DNA from: Chitinophagaceae bacterium
Lineage (GTDB): Bacteria > Bacteroidota > Bacteroidia > Chitinophagales > Chitinophagaceae
Length of the DNA stretch: 64,000 nucleotides
Direction: 5' to 3'
Assembly: GCA_025449645.1 (NCBI GenBank)
Contig: JANWIY010000163.1
Location: 1 to 64,000 of the forward strand
Shown piece by piece: positions 1,016 to 44,510 of this stretch (positions within the stretch are counted from its first letter, which is position 1; every line of letters starts with the position of its first letter). A model generated the notes under the pieces. It ran no database searches and was not told where the DNA came from. It saw nothing but the letters and a program-made list of their open reading frames with translations. The position numbers were made by a program, and so were the translations under genes.

Positions 1016-1058
1016 GGTTGACGGTTGACAGTTGATGGTTGACTGTCAACCGTCAACC
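1016..1058. repeat. Heptameric (TTGACGG-type) inverted repeat: 17-bp perfect stem, 9-nt loop
   Basis: GGTTGACGGTTGACAGT-TGATGGTTG-ACTGTCAACCGTCAACC in the divergent spacer between DUF2130 and ggt. Confidence 0.9.
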
Positions 1059-1092: not shown

Positions 1093-3117
1093 ATGAAATA
1101 CCTTCTCGCCGCGGGATTGATTCTATTTTCAATTCCGGGTTTTTCCCAGCGCACGGAAAAACCGCCTTTATACGCAAAACATTGGATGGCTATTACCGGG
1201 AAACCGCTTGGGGCCGAAGCGGGTGCTCAGATTTTTCAGAAAGGCGGAAATGCAGTGGATGCAGCCTGCGCCATGCTCGGTGCTGTTTGTACCATGTGGG
1301 ATGTGCTGAGCTGGGGAGGAGAGACTCAGGCCATTATTTATAATCCAAAAACAAAACAGGTGATCTCCCTGGACGCCCTGGGCTTTGCACCTGGTGCGGC
1401 AACCGTTAGTTATTATAAGAGTAAGGGATATTATTTCCCGCCAGAATACGGCCCCCTTGCTGCAGTGACGCCGGGTACGCCGGGCGGACTTTGCCACCTC
1501 CTTGCTGAGTACGGAACGATGAGCCTGAAGGAAGTGCTGGCTCCGGCAATGCAGATGGCTGCAGGATATCCAATTGATGCCCAAATTGCAAACAGCATCC
1601 AGGCCAACAGGAAAATGATCAGCCAGTGGCCATACAGTAAAAAAGTATTTTTGACACATCCGGGCGAAAAAAGAGAAGCGCCCTATCCCGGGGAAATCTT
1701 TGTTCAAAAAAACCTGCTTGCCACACTGACCAAAATGGTGGAAGCAGAGCAAGAGGCTTTAAAGAAGGGGAAATCGCGCAAAGAGGCCATCTATGCCGCA
1801 TATGACCGGTTTTATAAAGGTGATATCGCCAAAGAATTTGTGCGCGGTTGCCAGGAACAGGGAGGACTGATCACCATGGAAGACCTGGCGCGCTGGAAGC
1901 CGGTTGAGGAAGAGCCGCTCCACGTGAATTACAAAGGTATTGAAGTATATAAACTTCAGCAGTGGAGCCAGGGCCCAAGTTTATTGGAAGGTCTGAATAT
2001 CCTGGAGAATTTTAACCTGAAAGATATGGGTTACAATAGTGCACGCTATATCCATACAATTTATCAGACCATGAACCTGGCGTTTGCTGATCGTGATTTC
2101 TATTATGGAGATCCCTATTTTGCGAAAGAGCCAATGAAGGGACTATTGAGTAAAGAGTATGCAAAAGAAAGGGCCGCGCTCATTCAATACGACCATAACG
2201 ATTCCGTCGCTGCACCCGGCGATCCTTATCCCTTCGAGGGCAAAAGAAATCCTTATGCAGATCAACTGAAGAAAAGATTCGGTCCGTCCTGGCCGAACGA
2301 AGATTCGCGTTCAGCGTTATTCAGTCCGCAATCAGAGTCAAGCCAATCTTCAACCTCTCCATTCGTCCTTATAGCGGACCCATCTGTCAACCGTCAACAG
2401 TCAACGGTCAACGGTCCCCCCGTCAACGGTTCTCCCGTCAACCATCAACCATCAACCATCAACGAAACCTCCTACGCGCTAAGCGACAAAGACGAATCCC
2501 TCTATATGGACCGCCTTTGGCGCGGCACTACATCCATCGAAACCTGCGATGAAGATGGCTGGGTCGTGTCAGTAACTCCCAGCGGCGGATGGACCCCCGC
2601 CTGCATTGCAGGAGAGACCGGGGTGGGCATGAGCGAGCGGATGCAAAGCTTCGTGCTGGATTCCACCATCAATCCTTTTAATGTTCTTGAGCCCTATAAA
2701 AAACCGCGGGTTACTTTAACACCTACCCTGGCCATGAAAGATGGTAAACCTTTTCTCGCATTCGGGGTGCAGGGAGGAGATACCCAGGATCAGAACCTGC
2801 TCCAGTTTTTCCTGAATGTTGTTGAATTCGGTATGACGGTGCAGGAAGCAACAGAAGCGCCCAATATAAATACCGAGCAATTATGGCTTTCCCTCGGTGG
2901 TGACAGGCTGCAGGATCGTCAACCCCGTCCTGGAAGAATTTTATTGAACAGCAATACTTCTCCCTGGATCCGAAAGGAACTGAACGGTATGGGATATAAA
3001 ATGACTTTCGCAGACAGAACCAGCGGGCCTATCAATGCGATTTATTTCGACTGGAAGCACGGCAGTTTTTGGGGAGGCAGCAGTAATTATGGGGAGGATT
3101 ATGGGATAGCGTGGTAG
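1093..3117 (+). CDS. ggt: Gamma-glutamyltransferase family protein
   Basis: GKPLGAEAGAQIFQKGGNAVDAACAMLGAVCTMWD..., nucleophile region LWRGTTSIETCDEDGWVVSVTPSGGW, signal peptide MKYLLAAGLILFSIPGFS. ATG at 1093 preferred over the upstream 1039 start, which lies in the repeat. Confidence 0.92.
   Translation: MKYLLAAGLILFSIPGFSQRTEKPPLYAKHWMAITGKPLGAEAGAQIFQKGGNAVDAACAMLGAVCTMWDVLSWGGETQAIIYNPKTKQVISLDALGFAPGAATVSYYKSKGYYFPPEYGPLAAVTPGTPGGLCHLLAEYGTMSLKEVLAPAMQMAAGYPIDAQIANSIQANRKMISQWPYSKKVFLTHPGEKREAPYPGEIFVQKNLLATLTKMVEAEQEALKKGKSRKEAIYAAYDRFYKGDIAKEFVRGCQEQGGLITMEDLARWKPVEEEPLHVNYKGIEVYKLQQWSQGPSLLEGLNILENFNLKDMGYNSARYIHTIYQTMNLAFADRDFYYGDPYFAKEPMKGLLSKEYAKERAALIQYDHNDSVAAPGDPYPFEGKRNPYADQLKKRFGPSWPNEDSRSALFSPQSESSQSSTSPFVLIADPSVNRQQSTVNGPPVNGSPVNHQPSTINETSYALSDKDESLYMDRLWRGTTSIETCDEDGWVVSVTPSGGWTPACIAGETGVGMSERMQSFVLDSTINPFNVLEPYKKPRVTLTPTLAMKDGKPFLAFGVQGGDTQDQNLLQFFLNVVEFGMTVQEATEAPNINTEQLWLSLGGDRLQDRQPRPGRILLNSNTSPWIRKELNGMGYKMTFADRTSGPINAIYFDWKHGSFWGGSSNYGEDYGIAW
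2386..2464. repeat. Heptameric GTCAACN tract inside the ggt coding sequence
   Basis: GTCAACCGTCAACAGTCAACGGTCAACGGTCCCCCCGTCAACGGTTCTCCCGTCAACCATCAACCATCAACCATCAACG, encoding SVNRQQSTVNGPPVNGSPVNHQPSTINE. Confidence 0.9.
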
Positions 3118-3139: not shown

Positions 3140-3229
3140 GGTGGATGGTATATTGTGGATGGTAGATGGATCTCAGGTGCGGATCCCCAATGGAAGTCCA
3201 TCCACCATCCACCATATTCCATCCACCAC
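3140..3229. repeat. Composite hairpin element, short-core version (TGGATGG arms)
   Basis: Left arm GGTGGATGGTATATTGTGGATGGTAGATGG; right arm CCATCCACCATCCACCATATTCCATCCACCACT; 28-nt core ATCTCAGGTGCGGATCCCCAATGGAAGT. Lies between convergent genes. Confidence 0.9.
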
Positions 3230-5516: not shown

Positions 5517-5653
5517 GGTTGATGGTAGATGGTCGATGGTTGATGGAGGAACCTAATCCGGTAATAGCGAAAACGAATTCAACAGCAAGGGAGGAAAATT
5601 CTATTGGAGCCTTGCATCCAAAGTCCATCAACTATCAACCATCTACCATCAAC
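5517..5653. repeat. Composite hairpin element, full core (TTGATGG/TAGATGG arms)
   Basis: Left arm GGGTTGATGGTAGATGGTCGATGGTTGATGG; right arm CCATCAACTATCAACCATCTACCATCAAC; 78-nt core containing GCGAAAACGAATTCAACAGCAAGG. Confidence 0.92.
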
Positions 5654-25537: not shown

Positions 25538-26272
25538 TTGAAACCTTCTTCAATAATCATCGGGCGGCAGCCTTTAATCGAGGCCATTCAATCTGGCAGG
25601 GGAATCGATAAAATTCTTTTTCAACGGAATGTGAGTGGTGAATCCATCGGCGAGATCCGCAAACTGGCGGAGAAGCTCGGCATTCCTATCCAACAGGTTC
25701 CGCAGGAGAAATTGTACAGCTTCACCCGCGCCAACCACCAGGGCGTGCTCGCGCTGGCTTCGCTTTTTCAATACATAGATCTGCAGCAGGCCATTGATCA
25801 TGTGGTATCCCTGGGCCAGGTGCCGCTTTTTATCCTGCTGGAGGGCATTACTGATGTAAGAAATATCGGGGCCATCGCGCGGAGTGCGGTTTGTTGCGGG
25901 GCCCAGGTGATGATCATTCCGGACAAAGGCATTGCGGCTCTGAATGAAGAGGCCCTGAAATCCTCTGCCGGTGCGCTGGAAAAAATTCATATCTGCCGCG
26001 TAAGCAGTTTATTGAAGGCTGTGGACACCCTGCACCTCAATGGGATAAAGGTTTATGCGAGCGAAAGGGAAGCAGATAAAAAGCTGTTTGAATTGAACCT
26101 GAAAGACCCTTTCTGCGTGATGATGGGCAGTGAGGACAAAGGATTGCAGCCTCATTTGCGGAAGGCGGCGGACGAACTCTTTACGATTCCGATGGCCGGG
26201 AGTTTTGATTCGTTCAATGTTTCCGTAGCTGCAGGAATTATTTTGTATGAGGCGATGAAAGGGAGAATTTGA
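25538..26272 (+). CDS. rlmB: 23S rRNA 2'-O-methyltransferase (RlmB / SpoU family), TTG start
   Basis: IIIGRQPLIEAIQSGRGIDKILFQ, LLEGITDVRNIGAIARSAVCCGAQ, VMMGSEDKGLQPHLRKAADELFTIPMAGSFDSFNVSVAAGIILYE. Its TGA stop lies in the following repeat. Confidence 0.93.
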   Translation: MKPSSIIIGRQPLIEAIQSGRGIDKILFQRNVSGESIGEIRKLAEKLGIPIQQVPQEKLYSFTRANHQGVLALASLFQYIDLQQAIDHVVSLGQVPLFILLEGITDVRNIGAIARSAVCCGAQVMIIPDKGIAALNEEALKSSAGALEKIHICRVSSLLKAVDTLHLNGIKVYASEREADKKLFELNLKDPFCVMMGSEDKGLQPHLRKAADELFTIPMAGSFDSFNVSVAAGIILYEAMKGRI

Positions 26273-26535
26273 TAATTTGAAAATGAAAGGCAAATGTGGT
26301 AATGTGCAAATGTGGAAATGCTTTGGCTGCTGAAGGGCAGCTAAGATGGACAGTGATTTGAAAATTTGATAATTTGAAAATGAAAGGCAAATGTCGCAAT
26401 GTGCAAATGTGGAAATGCTTTGGCCACCAAAGCGCAGCGAAAGCGGGTGGTGATTTGAAAATTTGAAAGTTTGATAATTTGAAAATGCTTTGCCAACCGC
26501 AGGGCAGAGAAGGTGGGCGGAAATTTGAGAATATA
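26266..26535. repeat. Imperfect tandem repeat, about 97-105 bp period, about 3 copies, with 8-9-nt subrepeats
   Basis: AATTTGATAATTTGAAAATG at 26266 and 26363, variant at 26468; GGCAAATGTsGyAATGTGCAAATGTGGAAATGCTTTGGC in the first two units. Confidence 0.88.
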
Positions 26536-26645
26536 TTAAAACATGAGGCCCGTCGAAGTTGTTTGCGATGAGAAAGATCAGTGGGTAGAAATAATGAATA
26601 TAAGTTTTGCAAAACAAGTATTTGATTCAATAATCGGAGGCTGAT

Positions 26646-26676
26646 TTTTACTTTTTACTTTTTAATTTTTAATTTG
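26646..26676. repeat. TTTTTAC heptamer tract
   Basis: TTTTTACTTTTTACTTTTTAATTTTTAATTTG, repeated almost exactly at 57883-57912. Confidence 0.9.
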
Positions 26677-27537
26677 ACCCAACAAATCAAACTAATCGAA
26701 TGTCCGCGCGATGCGATGCAGGGATGGCCCCACATTATTCCCACGGAAAAGAAGATTGAATACCTCAATGCGCTCCTGAAGGTGGGATTTAACAGTCTTG
26801 ATTTCGGCAGTTTTGTTTCCTCAAAAGCCATTCCGCAAATGGCGGATACTAAGGAGGTTCTTGCCGGGTTGAGATTGAATGGGTCAGAAACGAGATTGCT
26901 TGCCATTGTTGCCAATACGCGGGGTGCGCGCGAAGCCTGTGGCTATTCCGAAATTAGCGATATCGGATTCCCCTTTTCTGTTTCGGAAACTTTTCAGCAG
27001 CGAAACGCGAATAGTTCTATAGAAAAATCTTTACTCACTGTTCATGAGATCCTGGAACTCTGCGGGGAAAATTCAAAACGGCTGGTTATTTATATTTCAA
27101 TGGCCTTTGGAAATCCTTACCGCGATCCATGGTCGGAAACCATCGTGCAGGATTGGATTCATAAGTTCGTCGAAATGAAAGCAGACGTTATCTCACTTGC
27201 GGATACGGTGGGTCTTGCAACTCCTGAACAGGTGTATTCCCTGGCCAGATTCACAATCACGCGGTTTCCCACAATTGAAACAGGCGTACACCTGCATTCG
27301 CGCAAAGAACACAGCATCCAAAAAGTGGAAGCTGCTTTTTCTGCTGGCTGCCATCGGTTTGACGGAGCATTGCGCGGGATCGGCGGCTGCCCGATGGCCG
27401 GTGATGAACTGGTTGGCAATTTGGATAGTTTGCTGCTGATTGACTATTTCCGAAACAAAAAGAGACCTGCAATATTGCACGAAGAGGCTCTGGAGCATGC
27501 TGTTGCCCTGACTGATGATATTTTTTTAAATCATTGA
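26674..27537 (+). CDS. Hydroxymethylglutaryl-CoA lyase family protein (TTG start at the repeat edge)
   Basis: IKLIECPRDAMQGWPHIIPTEKKIEYLNALLKVGFNSLDFGSFVSSKAIPQMADT, FVEMKADVISLADTVGLATPEQVY, FDGALRGIGGCPMAGDELVGNL. Confidence 0.9.
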   Translation: MTQQIKLIECPRDAMQGWPHIIPTEKKIEYLNALLKVGFNSLDFGSFVSSKAIPQMADTKEVLAGLRLNGSETRLLAIVANTRGAREACGYSEISDIGFPFSVSETFQQRNANSSIEKSLLTVHEILELCGENSKRLVIYISMAFGNPYRDPWSETIVQDWIHKFVEMKADVISLADTVGLATPEQVYSLARFTITRFPTIETGVHLHSRKEHSIQKVEAAFSAGCHRFDGALRGIGGCPMAGDELVGNLDSLLLIDYFRNKKRPAILHEEALEHAVALTDDIFLNH

Positions 27538-28522: not shown

Positions 28523-29066
28523 TGATTATTTTTTTAAATAAAGACCTAAAAACATGATTACCAGGGATACCCAGAAGGTAAACATCCATTTTGACCAGGC
28601 CAAATTTTGTTTGCGCAAGATTATCTTTTGTTGCATACCTAAGCTCATTTCTTCTTTCCATTTCTGACAGATCTGCCTTGGTCGCGAATTGCCTCAATTC
28701 ATTTATTAAGTCAGCTGCCATGGAATGGATGGATGAATGAACCTGTTTCAGTTCAGCTTTCATTTCAGCCCGCAACGAAATGTTGCCTTCATGAACCTGT
28801 TTCAGTTCATCTTTCATTTCGGCCCTAAAGGAATCGAATCTTAAATCAGCTTGTTTGAATTCATCCTTCATTTCAGTTTGCATGGAATGGATGACTGAAT
28901 GTACCTGTTTCAGTTCATCTTTCATTTCAGCCCGCAACGTATTGAGTTTTGAATCGGGTAGCTTGAAATCATTCTTTGTTTCTAACCGATTCGATTCGAT
29001 CTTTGAATCAAAGCGCTGCAGGTCTGATAGAATCAGTTGGAATTCGCTGTTGGAATCTTCATTCAT
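28485..29066 (-). CDS. Coiled-coil protein with 18-aa repeats; apparent +1 frameshift near 28589 (intact version would end at 28526)
   Basis: ATG at 29066 (MNEDSNSEFQLILSDLQRF). The annotated frame ends in an unusual tail (DVYLLGIPGNHVFRSLFKK...). The +1 frame encodes KWMFTFWVSLVIMFLGLYLKK*, a TM helix. Confidence 0.75.
   Translation of the reverse strand: MNEDSNSEFQLILSDLQRFDSKIESNRLETKNDFKLPDSKLNTLRAEMKDELKQVHSVIHSMQTEMKDEFKQADLRFDSFRAEMKDELKQVHEGNISLRAEMKAELKQVHSSIHSMAADLINELRQFATKADLSEMERRNELRYATKDNLAQTKFGLVKMDVYLLGIPGNHVFRSLFKKIIIRATRKSGQSPF
28677..28946 (-). repeat. 54-bp tandem repeat, 4 clear copies plus one degenerate
   Basis: CATTTC marker at 28761, 28815, 28869 and 28923 (exact 54-nt spacing). 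Protein units: LNTLRAEMKDELKQVHSV / IHSMQTEMKDEFKQADLR / FDSFRAEMKDELKQVHEG / NISLRAEMKAELKQVHSS. Confidence 0.92.
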
Positions 29067-36784: not shown

Positions 36785-37840
36785 GTGGCACTACTTCATA
36801 ACCGGATATCGCAAAAAGAGCTTAAACAAAGGCTGTTTGAAGAAACAGAACCGCGGACGACCATTTCGTTTTACCGTTACTTTCCCATTGCCGATCCTAT
36901 GTGTTTCCGGGATGAATTATACCTTGCGCTTTCCGGTTTACAATTATTCGGAAGAATCTACCTGGCCCGGGAAGGCATCAACGCGCAGGTGAGTGTACCC
37001 ATTTCCAGGTTAGAGGCATTCCGTGATTTTCTTGAATCACAGGCACCATTAAAAGGTCTCCGGCTGAACAGGGCCGTAGCGGATGACGGCAAATCGTTCT
37101 GGGTTTTAAAGATTAAGGTCCGGAATAAGATTGTAGCGGACGGCATCCGGGATGAGAACTTCAGCATGGAGAAGAAGGGAATGTATGTAAACGCAGAAGC
37201 GTTTAATGAACTCAGTAAGGATCCCGAGACGGTGGTCGTGGATATGCGGAATCATTATGAATATGAAGTGGGGCATTTCGAATGCGCCATGGAGATTCCC
37301 AGTGATACTTTTCGGGAGCAACTTCCCATGGCGGCCAGATTATTAAGGGAAAAGAAGGATAAGCCGGTGATCATGTATTGCACGGGTGGCATACGTTGCG
37401 AAAAAGCCAGTGCTTACCTGCTGCATCAGGGTTTCAGGAAAGTATATCATTTGGAAGGCGGCATCATTCACTATGCAAATACCGTAAGGGAAAAAGGGCT
37501 GGAAAATAGGTTCCGTGGTAAAAATTTTGTATTTGATGAGCGCCTCGGCGAGCCGATTTCGGAAGACGTGATCGCGCACTGCCACCAATGCGGCAAACAA
37601 GCCGATACGCATACGAATTGTAAAAACAGCGCCTGCCATCTGTTGTTTATCCAATGTCCGGAATGCGCGGCGAAATACGAAGGGTGCTGCAGCCCGGAGT
37701 GCCAGGAAATTTACAATCTCCCCGAAGAAGCACAAAAATTAATCCGCAGGGGAAAGAAAAATGATCAGCGGATTTTTAGTAAGGGGAGGAAGGGGAGGGG
37801 TGATTTGAAAATGTGGAAATGTGGAAATGTGAAAATGTGA
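36785..37840 (+). CDS. trhO: tRNA uridine(34) hydroxylase / rhodanese (TrhO/YceA-like), GTG start
   Basis: [101 protein letters not shown]. The C-terminal [13 protein letters not shown] is repeat-encoded. Confidence 0.93.
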
Positions 37841-37868
37841 AAATGTGAAAATGTGAAAATGTGAAAAT
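37801..37868. repeat. Octamer tandem repeat (GAAAATGT/GGAAATGT), about 8 copies
   Basis: GATTTGAAAATGTGGAAATGTGGAAATGTGAAAATGTGAAAATGTGAAAATGTGAAAATGTGAAAATT; contains the trhO stop codon. Confidence 0.93.
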
Positions 37869-37917
37869 TAAGACCCTTATGAGGAATGCAATTTCACTTA
37901 AAATCCGCAGTGACCCA

Positions 37918-37951
37918 TTTTTACTTTTTACTTTTTACTTTTTACTTTTTC
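37918..37951. repeat. TTTTTAC heptamer tract, 4 copies
   Basis: TTTTTACTTTTTACTTTTTACTTTTTACTTTTT; the purC stop lies in it (minus strand AAA AAG TAA). Confidence 0.93.
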
Positions 37952-38868
37952 CCTTTTAATTCCCCGACAACCACCTCATAAATCTCATCCCCGGTCATCG
38001 TAACCCGAACGAATTTCTCCCCGATAACTTTTTCATATAATTCGATATAGCGGTTGGAAATGGTTTGTATCCATTCGTCAGTCATTTCAGGCACCTGCTG
38101 ACCTTCTTTGCCCATGAAATTATTGCCAATTAACCACTCCCGTACAAATTCCTTACTGAGCTGCTTTTGCTTTTCCCCCCTTTTTTGCTTTTCTTCAAAA
38201 CCGTCAGTGTAAAAGTACCGGGAGGAATCGGGTGTGTGGATCTCATCCATCAGATAAATCGTGTTGCCGATCTTTCCAAATTCATATTTGGTGTCCACCA
38301 GGATCAGCCCTCTTTTGCCCGCAATCTCTTTTCCCCGCTGAAAAAGCGCCAGTGTATATCGTTCCAGGATCTGATAATCGTTTTCATTCACAATCCCGCG
38401 TGAAATAATTTCTGCTCGGGAAATGTCTTCGTCATGACCGGCTTCTGCCTTTGTGGACGGGGTTATGATGGGCTGGGGAAAGTAGTCGTTTTCTTTTAAC
38501 CCCTCAGGTAAGGCCACACCACATAAGTTTCTTTTTCCGTCGGAATAGGTTCGCCACGCATGTCCGGTCAGGTTTCCCCTGACCACCATTTCCACGCGGT
38601 AAGGAATGCATCGCTTTCCGATACTTACCTGCGGAGCGGGGACGGACAGCAACCAATTGGGGCAGATATCCCGTGTGGCATTCAACATATATGCAGCAAT
38701 CAGATTCAGAACCTGTCCTTTGTAGGGGATGGGACGGGGAAGGATCACATCAAATGCAGAGATCCTGTCGCTCGCGACCATCACCAGCAATTCTTCTTTA
38801 ATGCTATATACATCGCGAACCTTGCCACGGTAAAAACCAGTCTGATCCGGAAAATTAAATCTGTCCAT
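37942..38868 (-). CDS. purC: Phosphoribosylaminoimidazole-succinocarboxamide synthase
   Basis: [87 protein letters not shown]. Confidence 0.95.
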
Positions 38869-44364: not shown

Positions 44365-44510
44365 GGTTGATGGTAGATGGTAGATGGTAGATGGTTGATG
44401 GAATTCAGGTGCAACAGTTTATTTGAATTTACCAACCTTGTTTGTCAAATTCGTTTTCGGTATATATCCGTCGGAGGCTTCCATCAACCATCTACCATTT
44501 ACCATCAACC
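44365..44510. repeat. Composite hairpin element, full core
   Basis: Left arm GGTTGATGGTAGATGGTAGATGGTAGATGGTTGATGG (44365-44401), right arm CCATCAACCATCTACCATTTACCATCAACC (44481-44510), 79-nt core. Lies between convergent genes. Confidence 0.93.

Follow-up and report, generated by a model that had tools for sequence, protein, structure and literature searches.

Heptamer-armed hairpins as a dispersed family at gene 3' ends in a few soil Bacteroidota

About 100 hairpins with arms made of tandem heptamers lie dispersed through the source genome (G000, a 3.59 Mb draft of 190 contigs, 86% complete), just after genes, and constitute a real multi-copy family that is hosted by a few soil Bacteroidota and is a variant of bacterial interspersed palindromic repeats. 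Orthologous sites are occupied in related species, the elements sit close to stop codons, their two arms change in a coordinated manner, and their core is sometimes inverted between species. We consider it probable that these are non-autonomous dispersed hairpins which settled at gene 3' ends mostly before the split of three species and have since been inherited in place, with template switching maintaining the arms and flipping the core. Among open-licence papers, we found no published account of heptamer-armed inverted repeats in Bacteroidota and no description of the combination of mirror-image arms with a middle that flips between species. With this family, arm correction and spacer inversion at a hairpin can be followed as a single mutational experiment that nature has repeated about 100 times per genome, and one can ask what keeps 3'-end hairpins in place, selection or mutational drive.

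Three copies were already described in a sequence-only reading of the window (i.e., the whole 64,000-nt stretch of DNA analyzed here), and all three loci were confirmed in the sequence (Table 1). The same reading had aligned the two long cores over their full length in reverse orientation, an alignment that we reproduced at 65% identity, with a score of 21.5, while 2000 mononucleotide shuffles reached at most 13.5. It had also called the 28-nt core at 3.1 kb shortened, which proved to be the wrong way round, as 28 nt is the commonest core length (85 of the 152 copies parsed across three genomes have exactly this length) and the long core belongs to a minority. In the 5.5 kb copy, the right arm contains the stop codon of the upstream gene. 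Searching the 64-kb window against Rfam at gathering thresholds returned no match. The 3'-end location, the core flips, the coordinated two-arm change and the other word families of the same architecture reported below all go beyond the sequence-only reading.

Table 1 Heptad-armed hairpins and related features of the window
Feature	Position	Strand	Remarks
Long-core heptad-armed hairpin (44.4 kb copy)	44365–44510		Between convergent genes, stop codons 7 nt off on both sides
Left arm, 44.4 kb copy	44367–44401	+	TTGATGG TAGATGG TAGATGG TAGATGG TTGATGG
Long core, 44.4 kb copy	44402–44480	-	79 nt; orientation relative to the 5.5 kb core
Right arm, 44.4 kb copy	44481–44508	+	Four complementary heptads
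Second long-core copy (5.5 kb copy)	5517–5653		78-nt core at 5547–5624; between two - strand genes
Typical short-core copy (3.1 kb copy)	3140–3229		Heptads at 3142–3169 and 3198–3225; between convergent genes
Asymmetric core, 3.1 kb copy	3170–3197	+	28 nt, ATCTCAGGTGCGGATCCCCAATGGAAGT
Core-less TTGACGG/TTGACAG hairpin	1016–1058		17-nt arms, 9-nt loop; divergent gap
TTGACGG/TTGATGG-type heptad array	2386–2463		Lies in the coding region of a gamma-glutamyltranspeptidase homologue

To size the family, we combined BLAST with pattern searches. The 44.4 kb element gave 126 BLAST matches on dozens of G000 contigs, mostly to its arms; it aligned with the 5.5 kb copy (76%; E = 1.5e-19) and led to a third long-core copy on contig C49. 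An exact pattern with two heptads per side matched G000 96 times (nested forward matches), with 0 matches in the reversed control, and an exact arm-N-arm pattern with a core of 26–30 nt matched 40 times in G000 and 30 times in G007, again with 0 in the reversed controls. A more permissive parser, run on the stretches around matches, recovered 93 copies in G000, 43 in G007 and 27 in G019. Since 20 further G000 contigs (316 kb, taken in number order with content ignored) added only 2 copies, the total for this genome is near 100. These counts and their empty controls support the proposal of the sequence-only reading that the loci belong to a small non-autonomous dispersed repeat family with further core-containing copies in the genome. 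Across 33 genomes of the genus, the pattern was abundant in G000, G019 and G007, the core was seen in these three only, and G017, G224 and G020 had a few core-less pattern matches; a 199-genome sample of the order gave only a few loose, core-less matches. Over the stretches compared, G019 is 85% and G007 77% identical to G000. Note additionally that the parser, hairpin finder and gene calls (codon-based) are simple scripts, and that some of the heptad pattern is built in by the parser, with the argument being carried by the comparison of left with right arms, by core half-swaps and by the orientation of orthologues. Heptad positions 1, 4 and 7 seemed invariant, but this came partly from the parser and was hence set aside.

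A typical copy has its core flanked by four heptads on one side and four complementary ones on the other, and measures about 84–90 nt, or more where the core is long. Arm words include TTGATGG, TATATGG, TGGATGG and TTGACGG: heptads one, two and four from the core are mainly TTGATGG, TGGATGG or TAGATGG, unlike the third, which is TATATGG or TTGATAG, while a third subfamily is built from TTGACGG/TTGACAG heptads. As the outer heptad of G000 copies, TTGATGG occurs 62 times and TGGATGG 17 times. Left-right heptad agreement within an element greatly exceeds the shuffled level at every position (e.g., 0.60 vs. 0.28 for H1 and 0.53 vs. 0.18 for H2; elements shuffled within the set, with 0 of 2000 shuffles reaching the observed agreement). 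This agreement is position-matched, with the left third heptad equal to the right third at a frequency of 0.45 and to right heptads 1, 2 and 4 at 0.26, 0.24 and 0.17. The heptads are thus mirrored in a position-specific manner, and left-right covariation is confined to the arms. A consensus-like short-core element has a predicted folding energy of about -63 kcal/mol, with a z-score of about -15.

Oriented by expectation-maximisation, the 28-nt core reads ATcTCAGGTGCGAATTCgCAAcTAAAGT and is clearly asymmetric. Swapping core halves among elements costs 94 log units (log-likelihood -1610, vs. -1704 with sd 11 when re-paired), ruling out a perfectly palindromic core, and the core pairs internally less than re-paired halves do (0.52 vs. 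0.575). An asymmetric core with halves that are not interchangeable indicates that the copies descend from one oriented sequence. The long-core subfamily (78–93 nt) comprises both long window copies, those at C49, L046:10718, L059 and L161, and one G019 copy, and the last 14 nt of the long core resemble one half of the short core. Core orientation is random relative to transcription (18 vs. 25), ruling out the core as an RNA-strand signal.

Next, we compared orthologous sites between species. Where both flanks were found, a parsed copy was present in 10 of 11 and 10 of 12 cases in G019 and in 26 of 36 and 25 of 29 in G007, fractions that are biased upward because loci were picked around elements. 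The three window sites were picked without reference to G007, yet each of them holds a copy there, with TTGACGG arms and a core of about 28 nt. The family is absent from all three in G015; G017 has no element at the 5.5 and 44.4 kb junctions, with the convergent stop codons nearly abutting at the latter, and the genes of the 3.1 kb junction are no longer adjacent there. No target-site duplication was recognized between empty and occupied sites, at an identity between species (~75%) that leaves the alignments too diverged for a short one. At occupied sites, 19 heptads are mirrored perfectly within each species and differ between species, compared with 5.0 (sd 2.0) expected when the right arm is shuffled. 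With a small sample of G000–G019 pairs, and with three carriers that are draft assemblies of many contigs in which short-read assembly across palindromes could artificially flip a loop, the cores of L043/L064 (score 24 inverted vs. 10 direct, null p = 0.003), L047/L074 (24 vs. 8, null p = 0.003) and L086/L067 (20 vs. 4, p = 0.015, L067 being at a contig end) appear inverted, giving three individually well-supported cases of core inversion between species at shared sites. The cores of L045/L071 and L055/L079 match directly, and inspection by eye adds one that looks inverted (L081:8403 vs. L298) and two direct (L081:4142 and L066:5588). Many of the G019 contigs L063–L082 begin or end within ~100 nt of an element, which suggests either that the assembly is ambiguous at these repeats or that the population truly varies in structure there.

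Inverted repeats are already known to homogenise their arms and invert their spacers, as in plastid hairpin-loop inversions. Template switching between inverted repeats has both effects according to one study (PMC8604942), and would account for the mirrored arms, the random core orientation and the core inversion at shared sites. Under the mechanism we favor, replication would switch template inside the inverted repeat, where a nascent strand copying one arm from the other would homogenise the arms, and one copying the spacer backwards would invert the core. Quasipalindrome template switching, as treated in PMC8604942 and PMC7202029, shares arm homogenisation and spacer inversion with the present case but is described as a single-site mutational process, whereas here a whole dispersed family would be involved. 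Template switching leaves uncovered the first dispersal, the long core common to two sites and the replacement of words by unrelated ones, which together imply copying between sites or repeated insertion. Because two unrelated sites share the long core and their G007 orthologues are short, copies may trade words or cores, or existing sites may receive new elements. The sequence-only reading had suggested a REP-associated Y1 transposase as partner; PF01797 (Y1/RAYT) had 0 matches in G000, G019 and G007 (the last 99% complete), as did PF00078 (reverse transcriptase; retron, DGR, group II intron), making RAYT and retroelement routes of spread unlikely.

Sites without the family also proved informative. 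Orthologous sites that lack it usually hold a remnant arm or another hairpin, and a hairpin scoring at least 14 was present at 6 of 9 non-remnant sites vs. 27 of 192 other 3' gaps (p = 7e-4), the nine sites being a small, hand-assembled set of which one (L059|L110) contains family-like words. A few orthologous sites have a hairpin whose 7- or 8-mer word is unrelated to those of the family, and the 44.4 kb junction carries GCGGGAN-type arms in G005 and TTTGCGN-type arms in G014. Outside the family, 21 of 27 long hairpins have tandem period-7 or period-8 arms, and 0 of 67 divergent gaps contain a long hairpin. Unrelated arm words include ATTTGAAA, ACAATGG and TAAAAAG, as well as AAAGCCT, CTTTGCGN and GCGGGAN in other species. 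For instance, hairpins at L203:1294, 7013 and 19666 of G017 form a family apart, with AAAGCCT arms and a long core common to them, and word-armed hairpins occur with CTTTGCGN and ACAAGRN in stretches of G014 and with GGAAGTAT in stretches of G005; a 40 kb sample from each of G015, G009 and G229 contained none. We tentatively raise the possibility, which we rate as appreciable but short of probable, that the genus harbors a general class of word-armed hairpins, in which the junction hairpin is long-lived, its words are rewritten in place on both sides and its core flips. An equally tentative part of this reading is that rewriting may take place both within the family (TTGATGG, TGGATGG, TTGACGG) and between unrelated words. 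If true, such a class would amount to a form of concerted evolution not yet described for dispersed elements. Should words really be replaced at fixed sites, a mechanism is needed, and we know of no bacterial repeat family that supplies one. Separately, the G007 orthologue of one element site (L105:6585-6791) holds palindromic sequence that is GC-rich and resembles GAAGCTTTCTTCGA; it may belong to a further repeat family.

The elements show a preference for gene 3' ends. From the arm edge, the median distance is 10 nt to a flanking stop codon and 90 nt to a flanking start; of 81 copies in tandem gaps, 69 lie on the stop side (p = 7e-11). Copies are scarce in divergent gaps (10/125 vs. 117/474, p = 2e-5) and over-represented in convergent ones (p = 0.001). 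This preference matches that of both REPs and terminators. A 3'-end role as a REP-like or terminator-like barrier is plausible but unproven, with neutral tolerance at 3' ends as the default alternative. Under the template-switching reading, the hairpin might be tolerated or selected as an mRNA 3'-end barrier or terminator, perhaps acting in both directions between convergent genes. A stricter explanation holds that these are bidirectional transcription terminators, kept by selection on RNA pairing without any mutational bias. The location and near absence from divergent gaps are consistent with it, as are the stable predicted hairpin directly downstream of genes, the compensated arm changes and the presence of a classical terminator at the G007 orthologous site of one copy (L056 vs. 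L117). We nevertheless consider it unlikely: U-tracts behind the hairpin are not enriched (25/126, or 20%, vs. 18% in the control), the core is conserved in sequence and asymmetric yet has no preferred orientation to transcription, some orthologous convergent junctions of G017 have no hairpin at all, and core inversion is not predicted. An exclusion of classical terminators from element gaps first looked strong (0/125 vs. 36/317 gaps), but the effect was gone once elements were excised and gaps length-matched (5 seen vs. 5.7 expected), a result that also counts against the stricter explanation, and we make no claim of terminator replacement.

Somewhat less likely again, in our judgment, is a MITE origin, in which the elements would have arisen by deletion from a DNA transposon and would be mobilised by a transposase encoded elsewhere in the genome. 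Inverted termini, a common internal core, many dispersed copies and family-empty sites in G015 and G017 are all as expected of a MITE, but most sites are common to the three species and not polymorphic, no transposase with the same ends was noticed in G000 (a fragmented MAG), and no target-site duplication was recognized, within the limit on alignments given above. Integron attC sites, raised by the GTT-type heptamer, were set aside, as the copies are dispersed singly.

The closest resemblance is to REP/BIME/REPIN elements, which are likewise palindromic, present in many copies, extragenic, stop-adjacent and absent or rare in divergent gaps, and some copies here end in GTGG...CCAC, similar to "double foot" REPs (PMC6006769). 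Mobilisation in trans by a RAYT (Y1 HUH) transposase is nonetheless improbable: the carriers have no RAYT, Y1 genes are frequent in relatives without the family, and most copies have no GT[AG]G foot, which only the TGGATGG-ended minority could carry. Arms of 28–30 nt made of tandem heptamers, an oriented asymmetric core and core flips also set the family apart from REPs.

We give very little credence to a phase-variable invertible switch, in which a site-specific recombinase would act on the arms. Cores are inverted between species at some sites, as such a switch would require, but a 28-nt core has no promoter-sized content and shows no orientation bias to genes, and one recombinase would have to serve ~100 dispersed copies, with no candidate noticed. 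Chance or microsatellite expansion without a shared element can practically be dismissed, even with arms that are tandem heptamers and with heptanucleotide repeats being the commonest 5–11 nt class in many bacteria (as cited in PMC4679880), given the conserved 28-nt core, position-specific heptads and zero control matches; the sequence-only reading was right that this is no simple microsatellite.

Intergenic heptamer tandem repeats are also found in cyanobacteria and Beggiatoaceae (STRR, TAACTGA) and have been reported in a few Bacteroidetes (PMC4679880). Those of the STRR/TAACTGA type are repeated directly, for the most part ahead of start codons, and only one case is inverted (PMC4679880), whereas the present family has paired inverted arms, gene 3' ends and a conserved core. 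Within the window, the heptad array in the gamma-glutamyltranspeptidase homologue is in-frame and falls in a linker (about PSVNRQQSTVNGPPVNGSPVNHQPSTINET), of which G015 has a shorter version and G007 a different one. The small dispersed repeats of Nostoc (Elhai and colleagues, 2008) are reportedly very small and associated with tandem heptamers; they belong to a different phylum, and we liken them to the present family by description, not by sequence.

Other tandem repeats were also observed in the window. A four-copy repeat of period 54, a multiple of three, at 28734–28954 apparently lies within coding sequence. At 26255–26680 and 37789–37967, period-8 arrays (ATTTGAAA/ATGTGAAA) adjoin period-7 TTTTTAC arrays, and the same words make up hairpin arms in 3' gaps elsewhere in these genomes.
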